Of a stretch of 64,000 nt of DNA, positions 5,280-59,859 are shown one piece after another. Under the pieces are notes generated by a model. It was not told the origin of the DNA and did no database searches. It saw only the letters and a list, made by a program, of their open reading frames with translations. Every line of letters starts with the position of its first letter. Positions within the stretch are counted from its first letter, which is position 1. Origin of the DNA: Shewanella sp. SNU WT4 (GTDB taxonomy: Bacteria; Pseudomonadota; Gammaproteobacteria; Enterobacterales; Shewanellaceae); the NCBI RefSeq assembly GCF_006494715.1, contig NZ_CP041151.1, positions 434,001 to 498,000 of the forward strand, in the 5' to 3' direction. Both the position numbers and the translations under genes were made by a program.

Positions 5280-6811
5280 TGGAGCATTTTATCTTAACTC
5301 CTGGCAGCTTAACCTTAAGTCAGTTACGCGCCATTAGCCGCAACAAGGTGACATTGTCGCTAGCGCCAAGCGCCATCAGTGCTATCAATGGCAGCGCGGC
5401 GATAGTGCAACAAGTGCTGGATGAAGGCCGCACTGTCTATGGCATTAATACGGGTTTTGGCTTGTTAGCCAATACCAAGATAGCCCCGCAAGATTTGCAG
5501 TTATTGCAGCGCTCAATCGTGTTATCCCACGCGGCGGGTATTGGCCAATATATGCAAGATGCGACTGTGCGCTTGATGTTAGTACTTAAGATTAACTCCC
5601 TAGCGCGAGGGTTCTCAGGTATTCGTCTTGAAGTGATTAACTTTCTGATAAGCCTAGTTAATGCCGGCGTGTATCCTTGTATTCCTGAAAAAGGCTCAGT
5701 CGGCGCCTCTGGGGATTTAGCGCCTTTGGCTCATATGTGCTTGCCTCTTTTAGGGGAAGGTGAGATGAGTTATCAGGGCGAGCTTATTTCGGCCAGCGAA
5801 GGTTTAGCCATTGCTGGCTTAGCGCCGCTCGCTTTAGCCGCCAAAGAAGGCTTAGCGCTGCTTAATGGCACCCAAGCATCGACGGCCTTGGCATTAGAAG
5901 GCTTGTTTCACGCCGAAGATTTATTTGCCGCAAGTTCTGTGATTGGCGCCATGAGTGTTGAAGCTGCTATGGGTAGCCGTAGCCCATTTGATGCTCGTAT
6001 TCATGCCGCTCGCGGTCAACGTGGGCAAATAGATTCAGCCGCCATATTTAGGCACTTACTTGAGGCTGAGTCAGAAATTAGTTTAAGCCATGCCAATTGC
6101 GACAAAGTGCAAGACCCTTATTCGCTGCGCTGTCAGCCGCAAGTGCTCGGCGCCTGCTTAACGCAAATTCGTCAAGCGGCGGAAGTGCTAGGGGTTGAAG
6201 CCAATGGCGTAACGGATAATCCGTTAGTGTTTCAAGACACGGCTGAGATTATTTCTGGCGGGAATTTTCATGCCGAACCTGTGGCTATGGCTGCCGATAA
6301 CTTAGCCATTGCTATTGCTGAGCTGGGCTCAATCGCTGAGCGCCGAATTGCGCTACTGATTGACTCGAGCTTATCTAAATTGCCGCCATTTTTAGTTAAT
6401 AATGGCGGGGTTAATTCGGGCTTTATGATAGCGCAAGTCACGGCAGCGGCTTTGGCCTCAGAGAATAAAACCTATGCTCATCCCGCGTCAGTCGATAGCT
6501 TGCCAACGTCGGCTAATCAAGAAGATCACGTGTCTATGGCGACCTTTGCGGCGCGAAGATTAAGGGATATGGCGGAAAACACCCGCGGCGTATTGGCGAT
6601 TGAGTGGTTGGCGGCGGCGCAAGGCTTAGATTTCAGAGCGCCATTACTGCCAAGCGCGGCGGTAGCCCAAGCTAAGGCTGAGATCCGCGAGCAAGTGGCT
6701 TATTACGATAAGGACAGATATTTTGCCCCAGATATTGAGGCGGCCACTGAGCTACTTTATGGCGCGAGCTTGAATCGTTATTTACCAGCAGGTTTGCTGC
6801 CAAGTTTCTAA
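5279..6811 (+). CDS. hutH: Histidine ammonia-lyase, HutH
   Basis: Deaminates L-histidine to trans-urocanate and ammonia, the first step of the pathway. Ala143-Ser144-Gly145 ([11 protein letters not shown]) forms the MIO electrophilic cofactor by self-cyclisation, and Tyr54 in VYGINTGFG is the conserved active-site tyrosine. It is full length at 510 aa. It overlaps the hutU stop by one base. No hutG or hutF lies in the window, so breakdown of formiminoglutamate must be encoded elsewhere. Confidence 0.96.
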
Positions 6812-6833: not shown

Positions 6834-6864
6834 CTGAGGCTCTTGGTATTACCAAGAGCCTCAG
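6834..6864. terminator. Hairpin between convergent hutH and DUF3157 gene
   Basis: A 14-bp perfect stem (arm CTGAGGCTCTTGGT) with a 3-base loop sits between the hutH stop and the converging 6871-7524 gene. Neither side has a T-run, so it is not a classical intrinsic terminator. It may act as a bidirectional pause or RNA 3'-end stabiliser. Confidence 0.5.
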
Positions 6865-19498: not shown

Positions 19499-19607
19499 AA
19501 AAAAAAGCCTCAGCAATACAAAGATTGCTGAGGCGCCAGAATTTGGCTGTTCACTAAAAGTGAAATAAAGGTCTGAAAGATAGAACATCTTAACCTCTGT
19601 ACCCTAC
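19499..19607 (-). ncRNA. spf: Spot 42 small RNA
   Basis: On the minus strand the 5' part GTAGGGTACAGAGGT(T)AAGATG and the following TTCTATCTTTCAGACC match E. coli Spot 42 almost base for base. The 3' end is a 10-bp GC-rich stem (GCCTCAGCAA...) with eight Ts. The predicted length is 109 nt, the same as in E. coli. It lies downstream of polA in the same direction, facing engB, exactly the E. coli arrangement. A TATTAT -10 box sits 7 bases before the 5' end (19615-19620). Spot 42 is an Hfq-dependent regulator of carbon use; in E. coli CRP represses it. Targets here are unknown. Confidence 0.95.
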
Positions 19608-19733
19608 GCCGAGAATAATACTGGATTAATCATATTTTGAAAAACTGTTTTTTGCTCAATGACACAATAATGTGATGCCGATCGCGTCTCTCGCTGTTTT
19701 TATCAGCAGTTTTTGATCTAAAAATTACATAAA

Positions 19734-51985: not shown

Positions 51986-54154
51986 ATGAAGTGGCTGAGT
52001 GAAAGGTTTCGGCAGGTTTTCGGCATGAGCTGGTTACAAATGAAGGCCAAAGTGCGCTATCGCATCTTAATTTTAACCTTGCTGCCTATCTTGCTGACCT
52101 TAGTCAGCCTAGTGTTTATCACTATTTATTGGAACATTAGCTACACCGGCCAACAGCTATTTATGAAGGTGAAAGCCGATTTAGCTGTGGCGCAAAATAC
52201 CTTGTCGAGCTTACAAACACGGCAAGCCGCGCAATTGCAAAATGTCGTATCTTCGTGGGCCTTTCAAAATCACTTTCAGCATATGGCGAGCATGCCAAGC
52301 ACTGAGGTTTTTGAAGCTTGTCTGTCTCAGCAGCAGAAGACATTAGGCTTAGATTTTTTACGCTTGGTGCCAGTAGCCGAAGCGCAGGCCGACCCAGACT
52401 TACGCCAGATGCTACCTAAGACTGAGCAAAATCAGGCGTTTTCTGGGTTAATGGTGATGTCAAATCAAGCGCTTGGGCGTTTATCCCCTGAGCTTGCTAA
52501 GCAAGCCATTATCGATATTCAAGCGACTCATCATGCCAATCCCCCGGACGTTAGCAAGTTATCGCGCGGCTTAGTGAGTCGCAGCGTATTGCCTGTGGCC
52601 GATAGCCAAGGCAATGTCTTTTGGTATCTTGATGGCGGTATTTTACTGAATCGCAATACCAACATAGTCGATGATATTCGTGACTTAGTGTATGAAGAGG
52701 GCACCTTGCCTGCGCGCTCCATCGGCGCTGTCACTATTTTCTTAGGCAATGTTCGGATTGCGACTAATGTGCCGCTTAATTTTTATCCGCGAGAAGGCCA
52801 AGACCCAGGGCGCGCCTTAGGCAGTTTAGTATCGCAAGAAGTTGAGCAAAAGGTATTGGCCACGGGTAACACTTGGGTTGATCGCGCATTTGTGGTGGAT
52901 GATTGGTTTGTGTCGGCATATGCGCCCTTAAGGGATGTGCGCGGTAAACGCATTGGCATGATTTATACTGGGTTTTCTGAATCCCCCTTTGTCCATAACT
53001 ACCTATTAAACATCTTGGAGCTTGGTAGCATTCTAATGTTAGTGCTCTTAGTGTCTGGCTTACTGGTTTATCGCGGCGCTTACAGTTTATTGCAACCCAT
53101 AGAGCGTATTCATCATGTGGTTAAAGGGGTGCAATCAGGGCGCAATATGCGCATTGGGCCATTGGAGCTAGAGCGTGACAATGAACTATCCAATTTAGCG
53201 GCGCAGTTTGATTTGATGCTAGATCAACTCCAAGCCCGCAATCTTGAAATTCAAGCGGCGGCTGAGCAGTTAGAAATGAAAGTGGAGCAGCGCACCTTTA
53301 GCCTTCAAGAAAAAACCTTAGAGCTAGAGCGCAGCGTTAAGCTTCTCAATGAAACCCGCCAACAGTTAGTGACCAATGAAAAGCTTACGGCTTTAGGCGA
53401 ACTAACCGCAGGTATTGCTCACGAAATTAATAATCCGACGGCGGTGATCTTAGGCAACATGGAATTAATTCGTTATGAGCTTGGTGATGCCTCCAATTTA
53501 GTGGAAGAAGAAATCGATTTGATTATTCAGCAGGTGGATAGGATAAGCACTATTATCCGCAGCCTGCTGCAATACAGCCGGCCAGGTGAATTTAATGCGC
53601 CGCTTGAGATGCATGACCTTAGCCCTATTCTTGAAGAAACTATGGTGTTAGTTAGACACTCAATTTCACAGCAAGAAGTGGTGTTAATTAAAGAATTTAA
53701 CGCCAAGTGCCTCGTTGAAATTAATCGGCCGCAGTTATTACAAGTGCTGATTAACTTAGTGATTAACGCCACTCATGCCATGGCGGGTAAGGGGCGAATT
53801 TGGATCCGTACTTATGATTGGTATCAAGCCAATCAATCCTTTGAGAATGGTCACTCCCCCATAGGCGCGCGTATAGAAGTGGAAGATGAAGGCTGCGGTA
53901 TTGCCGATAGCGTATTAAACCGAATTTTCGACCCGTTTTATACCACACGCAAAGATGGCACAGGTCTGGGTTTATTCCTAAGTTATGGCATTATTAAGCG
54001 CCTTGGTGGCACCATTGAAGTGAGTTCTACCTTAGGTCAGGGCACTAAGTTCATCATAGGTTTGTATCAATTTGCCAAAGAAAACAATGATGGCAATCCC
54101 TACGATGGCTTGCATTTTAGTGCAGCCACGAAAGACTCTGAAGCGCAACATTAG
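51986..54154 (+). CDS. Membrane sensor histidine kinase (partner of the NtrC-type regulator)
   Basis: 722 aa. TM1 about 26-48, a long periplasmic region of about 290 residues with a Cache-type ligand-binding domain (late segment DDWFVSAYAPLRDVRGKRIGMIYTGF), TM2 about 343-363, HAMP about 364-420, coiled coil, then the kinase: His479 in GELTAGIAHEINNP, N-box LINLVINATHAM, and G-boxes DEGCGI and GTGLGL. NtrB/DctB-like. Starts right after the regulator, so cotranscribed. The signal is unknown; proximity to tup suggests an oxyanion or an associated metabolite. Confidence 0.9.
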   Translation: MKWLSERFRQVFGMSWLQMKAKVRYRILILTLLPILLTLVSLVFITIYWNISYTGQQLFMKVKADLAVAQNTLSSLQTRQAAQLQNVVSSWAFQNHFQHMASMPSTEVFEACLSQQQKTLGLDFLRLVPVAEAQADPDLRQMLPKTEQNQAFSGLMVMSNQALGRLSPELAKQAIIDIQATHHANPPDVSKLSRGLVSRSVLPVADSQGNVFWYLDGGILLNRNTNIVDDIRDLVYEEGTLPARSIGAVTIFLGNVRIATNVPLNFYPREGQDPGRALGSLVSQEVEQKVLATGNTWVDRAFVVDDWFVSAYAPLRDVRGKRIGMIYTGFSESPFVHNYLLNILELGSILMLVLLVSGLLVYRGAYSLLQPIERIHHVVKGVQSGRNMRIGPLELERDNELSNLAAQFDLMLDQLQARNLEIQAAAEQLEMKVEQRTFSLQEKTLELERSVKLLNETRQQLVTNEKLTALGELTAGIAHEINNPTAVILGNMELIRYELGDASNLVEEEIDLIIQQVDRISTIIRSLLQYSRPGEFNAPLEMHDLSPILEETMVLVRHSISQQEVVLIKEFNAKCLVEINRPQLLQVLINLVINATHAMAGKGRIWIRTYDWYQANQSFENGHSPIGARIEVEDEGCGIADSVLNRIFDPFYTTRKDGTGLGLFLSYGIIKRLGGTIEVSSTLGQGTKFIIGLYQFAKENNDGNPYDGLHFSAATKDSEAQH

Positions 54155-54166
54155 CCAAAAAATTCG

Positions 54167-54263
54167 GCAAAAAAAACCGAGAATTATCTCGGTTCAACAA
54201 AAGTGCTGAAGGTAGTCACATGCAGAGGGATGTGACTAAGAGCGAATCATGATGAATGCTCGG
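54167..54263 (-). ncRNA. Predicted Fur-regulated small RNA, minus strand
   Basis: A transcript started from the palindromic Fur box (54266-54300) on the minus strand would be about 97 nt. It would contain a hairpin with GTCACAT/ATGTGAC arms and end in a strong intrinsic terminator (AACCGAGA/TCTCGGTT stem, eight Ts) that serves no protein gene: yhhQ ends 380 bp upstream and the kinase is on the other strand. Existence and ends are inferred. Confidence 0.45.
54169..54194 (-). terminator. Intrinsic terminator on the minus strand
   Basis: Stem AACCGAGA / TCTCGGTT with ATTA loop and minus-strand T-run of eight. No T-run on the plus side, so it does not serve the histidine kinase gene. Confidence 0.8.
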
Positions 54264-54265
54264 AA

Positions 54266-54300
54266 CGCAATTAAATGATAATCATTATCATTTAATTGCG
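54266..54300. promoter_or_regulatory. Perfect palindromic Fur box (35 bp)
   Basis: 16-bp arms (CGCAATTAAATGATAA and inverse) around TCA, with the core AATGATAATCATTATCATT (54275-54293) agreeing closely with the 19-bp Fur consensus. No gene starts beside it, so it probably governs the small RNAs predicted on one or both sides. Promoter elements (TTTAAT-like -10 boxes) can be read in both directions inside the palindrome. Confidence 0.85.
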
Positions 54301-54302
54301 CA

Positions 54303-54503
54303 AGTAGTTTGTGATGATTTTTGCAATGGCGTGAGTCCACCTCAGCTAATCACTGCTGGCAGCCTGAACGCTTGGCTTGCTAATGGTTTACTGCTTGCTT
54401 CTACAACACAGCTTATGACTGACTAGCTGTCAGTATTCTCAAACTATAGCCGCAGAAAAATGCTTAGATAATCCAAGAACAGCAGCCCTAACTGCTGTTT
54501 TTG
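54303..54503 (+). ncRNA. Predicted Fur-regulated small RNA, plus strand (RyhB candidate)
   Basis: Non-coding stretch of about 200 nt between the Fur box and an intrinsic terminator at 54478-54503. It contains the hairpin CTGAC-TAGCT-GTCAG and a TGCTTGCTTC segment with faint likeness to the RyhB core (ATTGCTCACATTGCTTC). From memory, RyhB of Shewanella oneidensis was placed in an intergenic region between a yhhQ-like gene and a kinase, which fits. RyhB represses iron-using proteins in iron shortage. Direction and ends are not proven. Confidence 0.5.
54478..54503 (+). terminator. Intrinsic terminator on the plus strand
   Basis: Stem AACAGCAG / CTGCTGTT with 6-base loop, then TTTTT (54498-54502). 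It ends the plus-strand transcript from the Fur-box region. Confidence 0.75.
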
Positions 54504-54573
54504 GTTGGTGTCTTTACAGGGAAAGGGGAGTTGTTACTACATGTGCCATGTGGCGCAGCAGTAGCAGGCAGGC

Positions 54574-55233
54574 TTATGCCAACTTGCTAGTGCTATCGGG
54601 CGTGATAATTCTGTCTTGTAATACTCGCAGTAATACCCCGTAGGCAGGTAAGAACAGCGCAAAGCTAATGGCAAGTTTAAAGCCATAATCCACTAAGGCA
54701 ATCTCAGGCCAGTGCTGCGCCATAAACACATCATTGGATGCGTAAAACGCTATGCTGAAGAACACTAAGGTATCGATAAAATTACCGATAAAAGTCGATG
54801 CCGCAGGAGCCACCCACCAACTGCGCTGAGCGCGAATTTTGGCGAATACTTTAATATCCATCAGTTGCCCCACCAAATAAGCGGCAAAACTTGCAAAGGC
54901 AATTCTGAACATAAAGGAGTTGAATTCAGTTAAGGATCCCATGCCTTGGAAACTGCCTTGATGGAACAGCACGCCGATGATGTAGGAGATAATTAAGGCT
55001 GGTACCATGGCTTTAAAGATAATGCCGCGCGCTTGCTGCTGACCAAAAATACGCACAGTTAAATCGGTTGCCAAATAGACGAAAGGAAAGCTGAACGCGC
55101 CCCAGGTGGTGTGATAACCAAAGATTTGGAAAGGTAACTGCACCAGATAGTTGCTGGCAGTAATGATAAAAATATGAAACGCGGTCAATAACAACAGCGC
55201 GCGCTGATATTGCGCGTTAGAAAGCATAAGCAT
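54574..55233 (-). CDS. yhhQ: Queuosine-precursor transporter, YhhQ
   Basis: 219-aa inner-membrane protein with about six membrane helices. Family COG1738 (YhhQ) imports queuosine precursors such as preQ0/preQ1 for tRNA modification. Marks are the N-terminal NYLVQLPFQIFGYHTTWGAFSFPFVYLATDL and the later APAASTFIGNFIDTLVFF. The leader carries a preQ1-I riboswitch (55241-55277) whose 3' end holds the Shine-Dalgarno AAGG, 7 bases before the ATG; this supports both start and function. Confidence 0.93.
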   Translation of the reverse strand: MLMLSNAQYQRALLLLTAFHIFIITASNYLVQLPFQIFGYHTTWGAFSFPFVYLATDLTVRIFGQQQARGIIFKAMVPALIISYIIGVLFHQGSFQGMGSLTEFNSFMFRIAFASFAAYLVGQLMDIKVFAKIRAQRSWWVAPAASTFIGNFIDTLVFFSIAFYASNDVFMAQHWPEIALVDYGFKLAISFALFLPAYGVLLRVLQDRIITPDSTSKLA

Positions 55234-58526: not shown

Positions 58527-58559
58527 AATGCCACTCGCTTAAGAGCGAGTGGCATTTTT
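58527..58559 (+). terminator. Inward-facing terminator at the left IS end
   Basis: 13-bp stem (AATGCCACTCGCT and inverse) with loop TAAG, one arm being the terminal repeat; followed by TTTTT on the plus strand. It would stop transcripts entering from the HD-GYP gene, antisense to the transposase. Confidence 0.75.
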
Positions 58560-59859
58560 ACTTGGATATTTCACTGTTTTCTTTAGCACCACACGCGGGT
58601 AGCTGGGCCGATTCCTCTTTGGGGGTAAAATCAACCTTTTGCCATTTTCCCTCAGTCGTTTTAAGTGCTGTGGGATCGCTCCCGGACTCCCTCTGTCGCT
58701 CCAACCAAACTCATCCTGTATTAAAAACAGGGCATTAATGAAACTTATCCTCTGTGGCTCAACTTTATGCTGCACTGCCATTGCGGCCATCTCTAGCCGA
58801 ACAATATTGTAGGTCGTTAAGATCCCCCATAATTCTTGATACACCCCATCCTTCTTCTTACTGCGCAGGACAGGTTTATTTTCCAGTTGATATTGCTTTA
58901 GCTCACTATAACCCCTCTCTATCTCCCATCGCTGCCAATACACCTTGAGTAAATCGTTCACTGGATAGATGTTGGGGCATAGGCAGGACGTGATAAACCC
59001 TTTGATATCACCTTTGGGTGACGGAATAAGAATAAGGCGGGCTTGCCAGCTCTCCCCCAGATAAGGCGCTTACTGTTTAGCTTGGGGTGATACCGGCATC
59101 TCAACCAGATGGTCATACTCTGAGAATGACTCGATAATTTGATAGCGGGTCTTAGACTTTATCGGGGTTAACCAATGGGTGTTTGCACCGCTTTCTTGCC
59201 AGCTGATGAGCAATTCGGCAGACATAAACCCACGGTCAAACAACGTGAGCGAATTCTCGGGAGCTGAGCCAACCAATTGCTGTGCATAGTGAATTTCACT
59301 GTGGGTAACAGGCCCGAAAGCCGCATCAGAAAGTAAGTGGCTACGAGTAGACATTAAGGTGACCGCCAGCACAGAGGGAAAAGAAGCCGTGCTTTGTGCA
59401 AAGCCAAAGTGATGGTTTTCTTCAGTGTTATGCGTCTTAAAATACGTCCCATCAACACTGAGCAATTTCAATCCCGCTATCTCATCAAATTCGCACTGTG
59501 TTTCCCACTGTGCAGCGGTTGTTTTGAACAGATAACGCATGGGCTCTGAACCCAACTTTTCTTTGGCTTTGATGATACTACTGGTCGCCAGTGGCGGGAG
59601 CTCCCCCTTGGAGTCGGGAAATGCCAGTGAGAGCGTATCACAGACTTGCTGAATCGAGCGGTTACGCATCAAACCAATGCCTAGAACCAACCAAACAGCT
59701 TGCTCTGCAGGGAAACGGCGGGTTCGAAGCGAGGCCCTGCCAGTTTGTTGCACAGCCTCAGCTACCCAATCCATGGGAACATGTTTGGGCGAATACATCA
59801 ATATCTTGCGCTTGGCAAAATTCAGCGGTAACGAGTAGCTCTTTAGAAAATTCAGACAT
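58539..59859 (-). pseudogene. IS4-family transposase, broken by a frameshift and a stop codon
   Basis: The ATG at 59859 begins a frame MSEFSKELLVTAEF...DVFAQ; about 70 bp in, one extra A in a CCCAAACAT run (59781-59790) shifts it, and the rest reads HVPMDWVAEAVQQTGRASL... in the next frame. An in-frame TAA (59070-59072) interrupts the catalytic domain between QAKQ and APYLGESW. Catalytic DDE residues can still be seen: Asp in LLSVDGTYF, Asp in LTLFDRGFMS, Glu in WEIERGYSELK. The C-terminus ends at 58539. Two lesions make it inactive. Confidence 0.9.

Follow-up and report, generated by a model that had tools for sequence, protein, structure and literature searches.

A predicted Fur-controlled small-RNA gene without the RyhB core at the ryhB locus of a Shewanella lineage

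INTRODUCTION

RyhB is a textbook small RNA in which conservation is highest in a short core that pairs with target messages. In Shewanella oneidensis, ryhB lies between SO_4716 and SO_4717 and gives a transcript of ~127 nucleotides (nt), according to the available part of one report (PMC5826389). The available part of another (PMC2964681) gives a transcript of 168 nt by RACE, 20-fold induction in a fur mutant, and repression of sodB by overexpressed RyhB; it also describes two copies of ryhB in S. amazonensis and states that the Rfam ryhB model missed the gene of strain MR-1. The available parts of the open-access literature, including PMC8891985 and PMC5471319, contain no report of a RyhB without its core and none of two divergent Fur-controlled RNAs at the ryhB locus.

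Here we analyze a 64-kb stretch of DNA (64,000 nt; the window) from Shewanella sp. SNU WT4, whose genome comprises 4,129,700 bases in two contigs. A previous reading of the letters of the window, made with no database searches (the sequence-only reading), had proposed that a palindromic Fur box separates two divergent iron-stress RNAs, one of which is likely RyhB.

RESULTS

The minus strand of the window carries a predicted small-RNA gene that adjoins a histidine-kinase-like gene on the opposite strand, as Shewanella RyhB does. The features of the locus are as follows.

51986 to 54154, plus strand: histidine-kinase-like open reading frame (ORF), the left neighbor of ryhB in relatives; named by reading and from synteny in the literature
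54169 to 54268, minus strand: predicted small RNA at the ryhB locus, ~100 nt long, with GCGTTCC as its start and no TGCTCAC core
54169 to 54195, minus strand: intrinsic terminator of the minus-side RNA (stem, 54195 to 54174, and T-run)
54196 to 54212, minus strand: linker at the position of the RyhB core, conserved in the sister genome; a putative new pairing region
54213 to 54238, minus strand: hairpin 2, TAGTCACAT with ATGTGACTA, from the predicted fold and the comparison with the sister
54240 to 54261, minus strand: hairpin 1 of the predicted fold, with an outer stem of GAGC with GCTC (in the sister, GAGC with GTTC)
54266 to 54300, no strand: perfect 35-bp palindrome that includes a Fur-type box and overlaps the minus-side RNA promoter
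54275 to 54280, minus strand: predicted −10 element of the minus-side RNA, TATCAT
54298 to 54303, minus strand: predicted −35 element of the minus-side RNA, TTGCGC, from comparison with the consensus
54302 to 54503, plus strand: stretch with a hairpin at 54481 to 54499, unsupported as an RNA gene
54574 to 55233, minus strand: yhhQ-like ORF, ending at 54574; named by reading and from synteny in the literature

We fetched 19 named Shewanella loci with the kinase protein as the query. The TGCTCAC core was present opposite the kinase strand in 17 of them; the two exceptions were a locus cut by a contig end (L043) and that of Shewanella sp. NIFS-20-20 (L030), which we infer to be the strain of the sister genome (G026). 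Relatives usually carry an SO_4716-like gene between the yhhQ-like gene and ryhB, and this gene is absent from the window and present in the sister. Placing the start at GCGTTCC, by analogy with relatives, gives a window RNA of 100 nt running from 54268 to 54169. A transcript of 127 nt ending with the T-run would start at GCGTTCC at two loci of relatives (L031 and L034) and 2 nt inside it at two others (L032 and L033). The predicted fold of the minus strand is much stronger than those of shuffled sequences (z = −5.36; 0 of 200 shuffles), and the hairpin and strong terminator that the sequence-only reading had placed on this side were both recovered. We conclude that this predicted RNA occupies the ryhB locus, with a ryhB-type promoter, start, and terminator.

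The 35-bp palindrome of the sequence-only reading lies at 54266 to 54300 and is perfect. A scan of the window for perfect palindromes with arms of at least 10 bases gave none longer; a second one, of 31 bp, lies at 6834 to 6864. The flanking ORFs end at 54154 and 54574, in agreement with the earlier statement that no coding gene adjoins the palindrome. By direct reading, the putative Fur box agrees at 16 of 19 bases with GATAATGATAATCATTATC, the Fur-box consensus as quoted in the available part of PMC2964681, and among the matches listed the palindrome is the only site of the genome that fits ATGATAATNATTATCAT with 0 mismatches; the sequence-only reading was right about the Fur-type box. Both the spacing of the promoter elements and the GCGTTCC start agree with the ryhB genes of relatives, in which the −35 element is TTGCAA or similar at the same spacing as in the window. 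We compared arm symmetry among 65 distinct ryhB-type promoters, taken from the fetched loci with a pattern that demanded the core or a window-type linker downstream. Symmetry was complete in the window (17 of 17 arm pairs), nearly so in the sister (16 of 17), and reached 13 in the best of the others; a palindrome extending well past the Fur box was seen only at 54266 to 54300 of the window and at 5761 to 5793 of L030. One arm position differs between the window and the sister, identically on both arms, so that the symmetry was kept through the change.

The TGCTCAC targeting core is absent from the ryhB locus in both the window and the sister. We built a covariance model, R1, that comprises the core and the terminator, from 30 core-bearing sequences and searched 129 Shewanella genomes with it. 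Among the matches listed, 126 of the 129 genomes had one with an E value of 4.6e-5 or better; at least 5 of the 126 had supplied sequences for R1. This is a count that rests on the R1 score, with the Fur box inspected at a minority of places. The three exceptions were the genome of the window (best E value, 0.059), the sister (0.017), and a genome with no match at all (G101). With laxer filters, the best match in the window's own genome had an E value of 0.056, and the ryhB locus itself scored 16.5 bits (E value, 3.3). The best place in the sister lay off the locus: it has CACGACCTTG, showed no Fur box by eye, and scored 29.3 bits (E value, 0.0012), more than the locus, which retained its E value of 0.017. 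G101 again gave no match. A covariance search for Shewanella RyhB, which the sequence-only reading had named as a check, gives no clear match at the window locus.

Fourteen further loci, from genomes picked for closeness or for low R1 scores, were also fetched, and 12 of them keep TGCTCAC, the other two being those of G101 and G068. No Rfam family reaches its curated gathering score at the window locus. PrrF (RF00444), likewise a Fur-controlled RNA, gives a weak match (22.6 bits; E value, 0.14) that covers the palindrome and terminator and lies far under the curated 90 bits of that family. The earlier suggestion that one of the RNAs is likely RyhB therefore stands as regards position, promoter, start, and terminator but fails at the core, and since the core is absent, the window RNA should not, by its sequence, be called or filed as RyhB.

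A relocated RyhB was sought elsewhere in the genome of the window. R1 gave six matches with E values of ≤10, five of them off the locus; the four of these five that were read looked like coding sequence or gene-end terminators, with a best Fur score of 11 or 12 of 19. Allowing up to 3 mismatches, the core sequence had 15 matches in the genome (2 for a backward-pattern control), and two of the 15, each with 2 mismatches, were read and had a best Fur score of 11 of 19. On these six places, a relocated RyhB was rejected. The alignments show substitutions and small gaps, and the idea that the core was lost by a clean 18-base deletion was also dropped.

Other arrangements were seen among the fetched loci. 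Three tandem core-bearing copies of ryhB lie at one locus in L058, L059, and L061, and two in L039, L040, L042, L044, L047, L060, L062, and L098. One genome (G102) has two full ryhB genes with Fur boxes, at L181 (G102:C13:1-2500) and L182 (the end of G102:C14), each followed by head-to-tail promoterless RyhB-like units of core plus terminator. These arrays have periods of 103 (7.3 copies) and 119 (2.8 and 2.2 copies, interrupted by the contig end) and the two places have 12 R1 matches in all; some of the terminators look degenerate, so that a multicore RNA is possible. The tandem genes belong to the same family and locus as the gene described here, but there core-bearing copies have multiplied, whereas in the lineage of the window the gene is single and lacks the core. 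In G101, represented by L092 and L146, the usual place shows no clear Fur box; the assembly is in 50 contigs and may have a gap there. Elsewhere in the window are a Spot 42 RNA (19499 to 19617, minus strand; 98.8 bits) and an ORF that, by reading, resembles the end of a transposase (58539 to 58961, minus strand).

Loss of the core could mean that ryhB is decaying in this lineage, the leftover RNA being without function and the promoter and terminator being remnants. The lost core match to R1 fits such decay, as does the divergence between window and sister of the 5′ part of the RNA (19 of 30 positions identical) and of hairpin 2 (11 of 25), and the lack of any RyhB match in G101 indicates that the gene can be dispensable. 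Against it, other parts of the gene are far better conserved than four-fold degenerate sites, of which 109 of 240 in the kinase gene and 40 of 80 in yhhQ are identical (45 to 50%); the kinase proteins share 588 of 714 residues. With block limits set after the alignment had been viewed, identity was 35 of 39 positions (90%) in the promoter, 24 of 26 (92%) in the terminator, and 15 of 20 (75%) in the linker that replaces the core. Homology to the sister covers 54169 to 54310, which is just the gene and its promoter. The Fur site, the best in the genome among the matches listed and the most symmetrical of the 65, and the strong fold likewise speak against decay. In hairpin 2, all seven of the compared pairs are kept in the sister, three of them through two-sided changes, a level also reached by 62 of 500 shuffles and, coming from two sequences, suggestive only. 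The lineage without the core is known from two genomes. On this comparison, the retention of promoter, terminator, and linker next to diverged four-fold sites favors a gene retained with changed targets over a decaying one, and the RNA appears to be kept by selection. We regard decay as unlikely, though as an alternative to be taken seriously.

The RNA might instead still be RyhB in function and reach the usual targets through another of its stretches; the GCGTTCC start and the general build are indeed common to other ryhB genes. The persistence of TGCTCAC at 17 of the 19 named and 12 of the 14 further loci argues against this, and so does the sodB leader. We sought sodB in 45 genomes. Of the leaders, 30 came as loci and 6 were fetched, and these 36 were read. 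GTGAGCA occurs in 25 of the 34 leaders outside the window-sister pair, and 28 of the 34 have at least 7 bases complementary to the core, a length that shuffled leaders reach in about 4 to 6% of cases. In the window and sister, the longest complement to the core is 4 nt, and the usual site is missing. Six of the 34 other genomes, with a clear RyhB match, also fall below 7 bases, so the absence of the site agrees with the loss of the core but is no proof of it. Pairing of the RNAs with their own sodB leaders was not convincing, the longest contiguous complement being 6 nt in the window and 7 nt in the sister. We consider it very unlikely that this RNA still acts on the usual RyhB targets.

An 11-base complement of the linker end has two exact sites in the window's own genome, one in the small-RNA gene itself and the other antisense to an ORF, and neither is a sensible target. 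As a speculation, CCUU in the linker might bind the AAGG found in ribosome-binding sites.

On the plus side, the sequence-only reading had described about 200 noncoding nt ending in a terminator. At 54481 to 54499 there is indeed an inverted repeat, followed by a short T-run, but the number of terminator-like sites between 52500 and 56500 (6, versus 4.3 ± 2.2 in shuffles) is within chance. For the ~200 nt, the gain in folding over shuffled sequences is only moderate (z = −2.06; 4 of 200). Positions 54308 to 54573 have no match better than an E value of 0.006 in the 129 Shewanella genomes, self excepted. In the sister, homology ends just past the promoter, and a coding gene occupies that side; most of the named loci that were read have there a minus-strand SO_4716-like gene that ends near the Fur box, and L039 and L045 have another gene. 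No SO_4716-like gene or relic was detected on the plus side of the window. A tblastn search with two such proteins against 54151 to 54700 gave none below an E value of 0.5, and the relic was rejected; a 12-base match, CAGCCCTAACTG, to the SO_4716-like gene of the sister had an E value of 0.19.

Symmetrical promoters can fire in both directions. The symmetry of the palindrome places TATCAT on both strands, and by the plain promoter consensus, the minus and plus directions differ by only one base (8 versus 7 of 12); weak transcription to the right may start at the symmetrical −10. These points and the inverted repeat would suit a single Fur site governing two outward-facing small RNAs, but the −35 element that relatives conserve serves the minus direction alone. 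With no plus-side match better than an E value of 0.006 in the 129 genomes, a hairpin count within chance, and a gene on that side in the sister, the sequence comparisons do not support a second conserved RNA, and the proposed divergent pair is very unlikely, the least probable of the readings considered here.

DISCUSSION

Our preferred reading is that the palindrome serves one Fur-controlled small-RNA gene at the ancestral ryhB locus, with the core replaced and the targets most likely changed, and we judge this probable. That ryhB has been rewired in place, with start, fold, and terminator kept, the Fur switch kept and perfected to a 35-bp palindrome, and the core, elsewhere nearly invariant, exchanged for a new conserved linker that serves a different set of targets, is a fuller claim, on which we are evenly divided. 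A single promoter would read the gene leftwards from the ancestral locus. In the presence of iron, Fe-Fur bound to the palindrome over the promoter would block it; in the absence of iron, the promoter would fire and give an RNA of ~100 nt, with two hairpins, the linker, and the terminator. The species of the window and its sister would have replaced the RyhB core while retaining promoter, start, fold, and terminator, and the linker 5′ of the terminator would most likely pair with a changed set of messages. The window RNA should probably act in the manner of RyhB, being expressed in the absence of iron, when Fur leaves, ended at the terminator, and bound by Hfq.

As described in the available parts of PMC2964681 and PMC5826389, RyhB of MR-1 shares with the window RNA the kinase-side locus and strand, a Fur-type box, the promoter spacing, the GCGTTCC start, and the kind of terminator. 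MR-1 RyhB differs in having the TGCTCAC core and the SO_4716 neighbor, both of which the window RNA lacks, and the perfect 35-bp palindrome is found in the window, unlike in MR-1. At ~100 nt, the window RNA is also shorter than the ~127 or 168 nt published for MR-1 RyhB in the available text. What appears to be new is an RNA at the ryhB locus that is without the RyhB core and yet seemingly kept by selection.

If this reading is correct, a lineage that has exchanged the core of a small RNA while keeping the gene and its iron switch would reveal how the regulon of such an RNA is retargeted, with close relatives serving as controls. It would also be a warning against taking RyhB function for granted from place and promoter alone.
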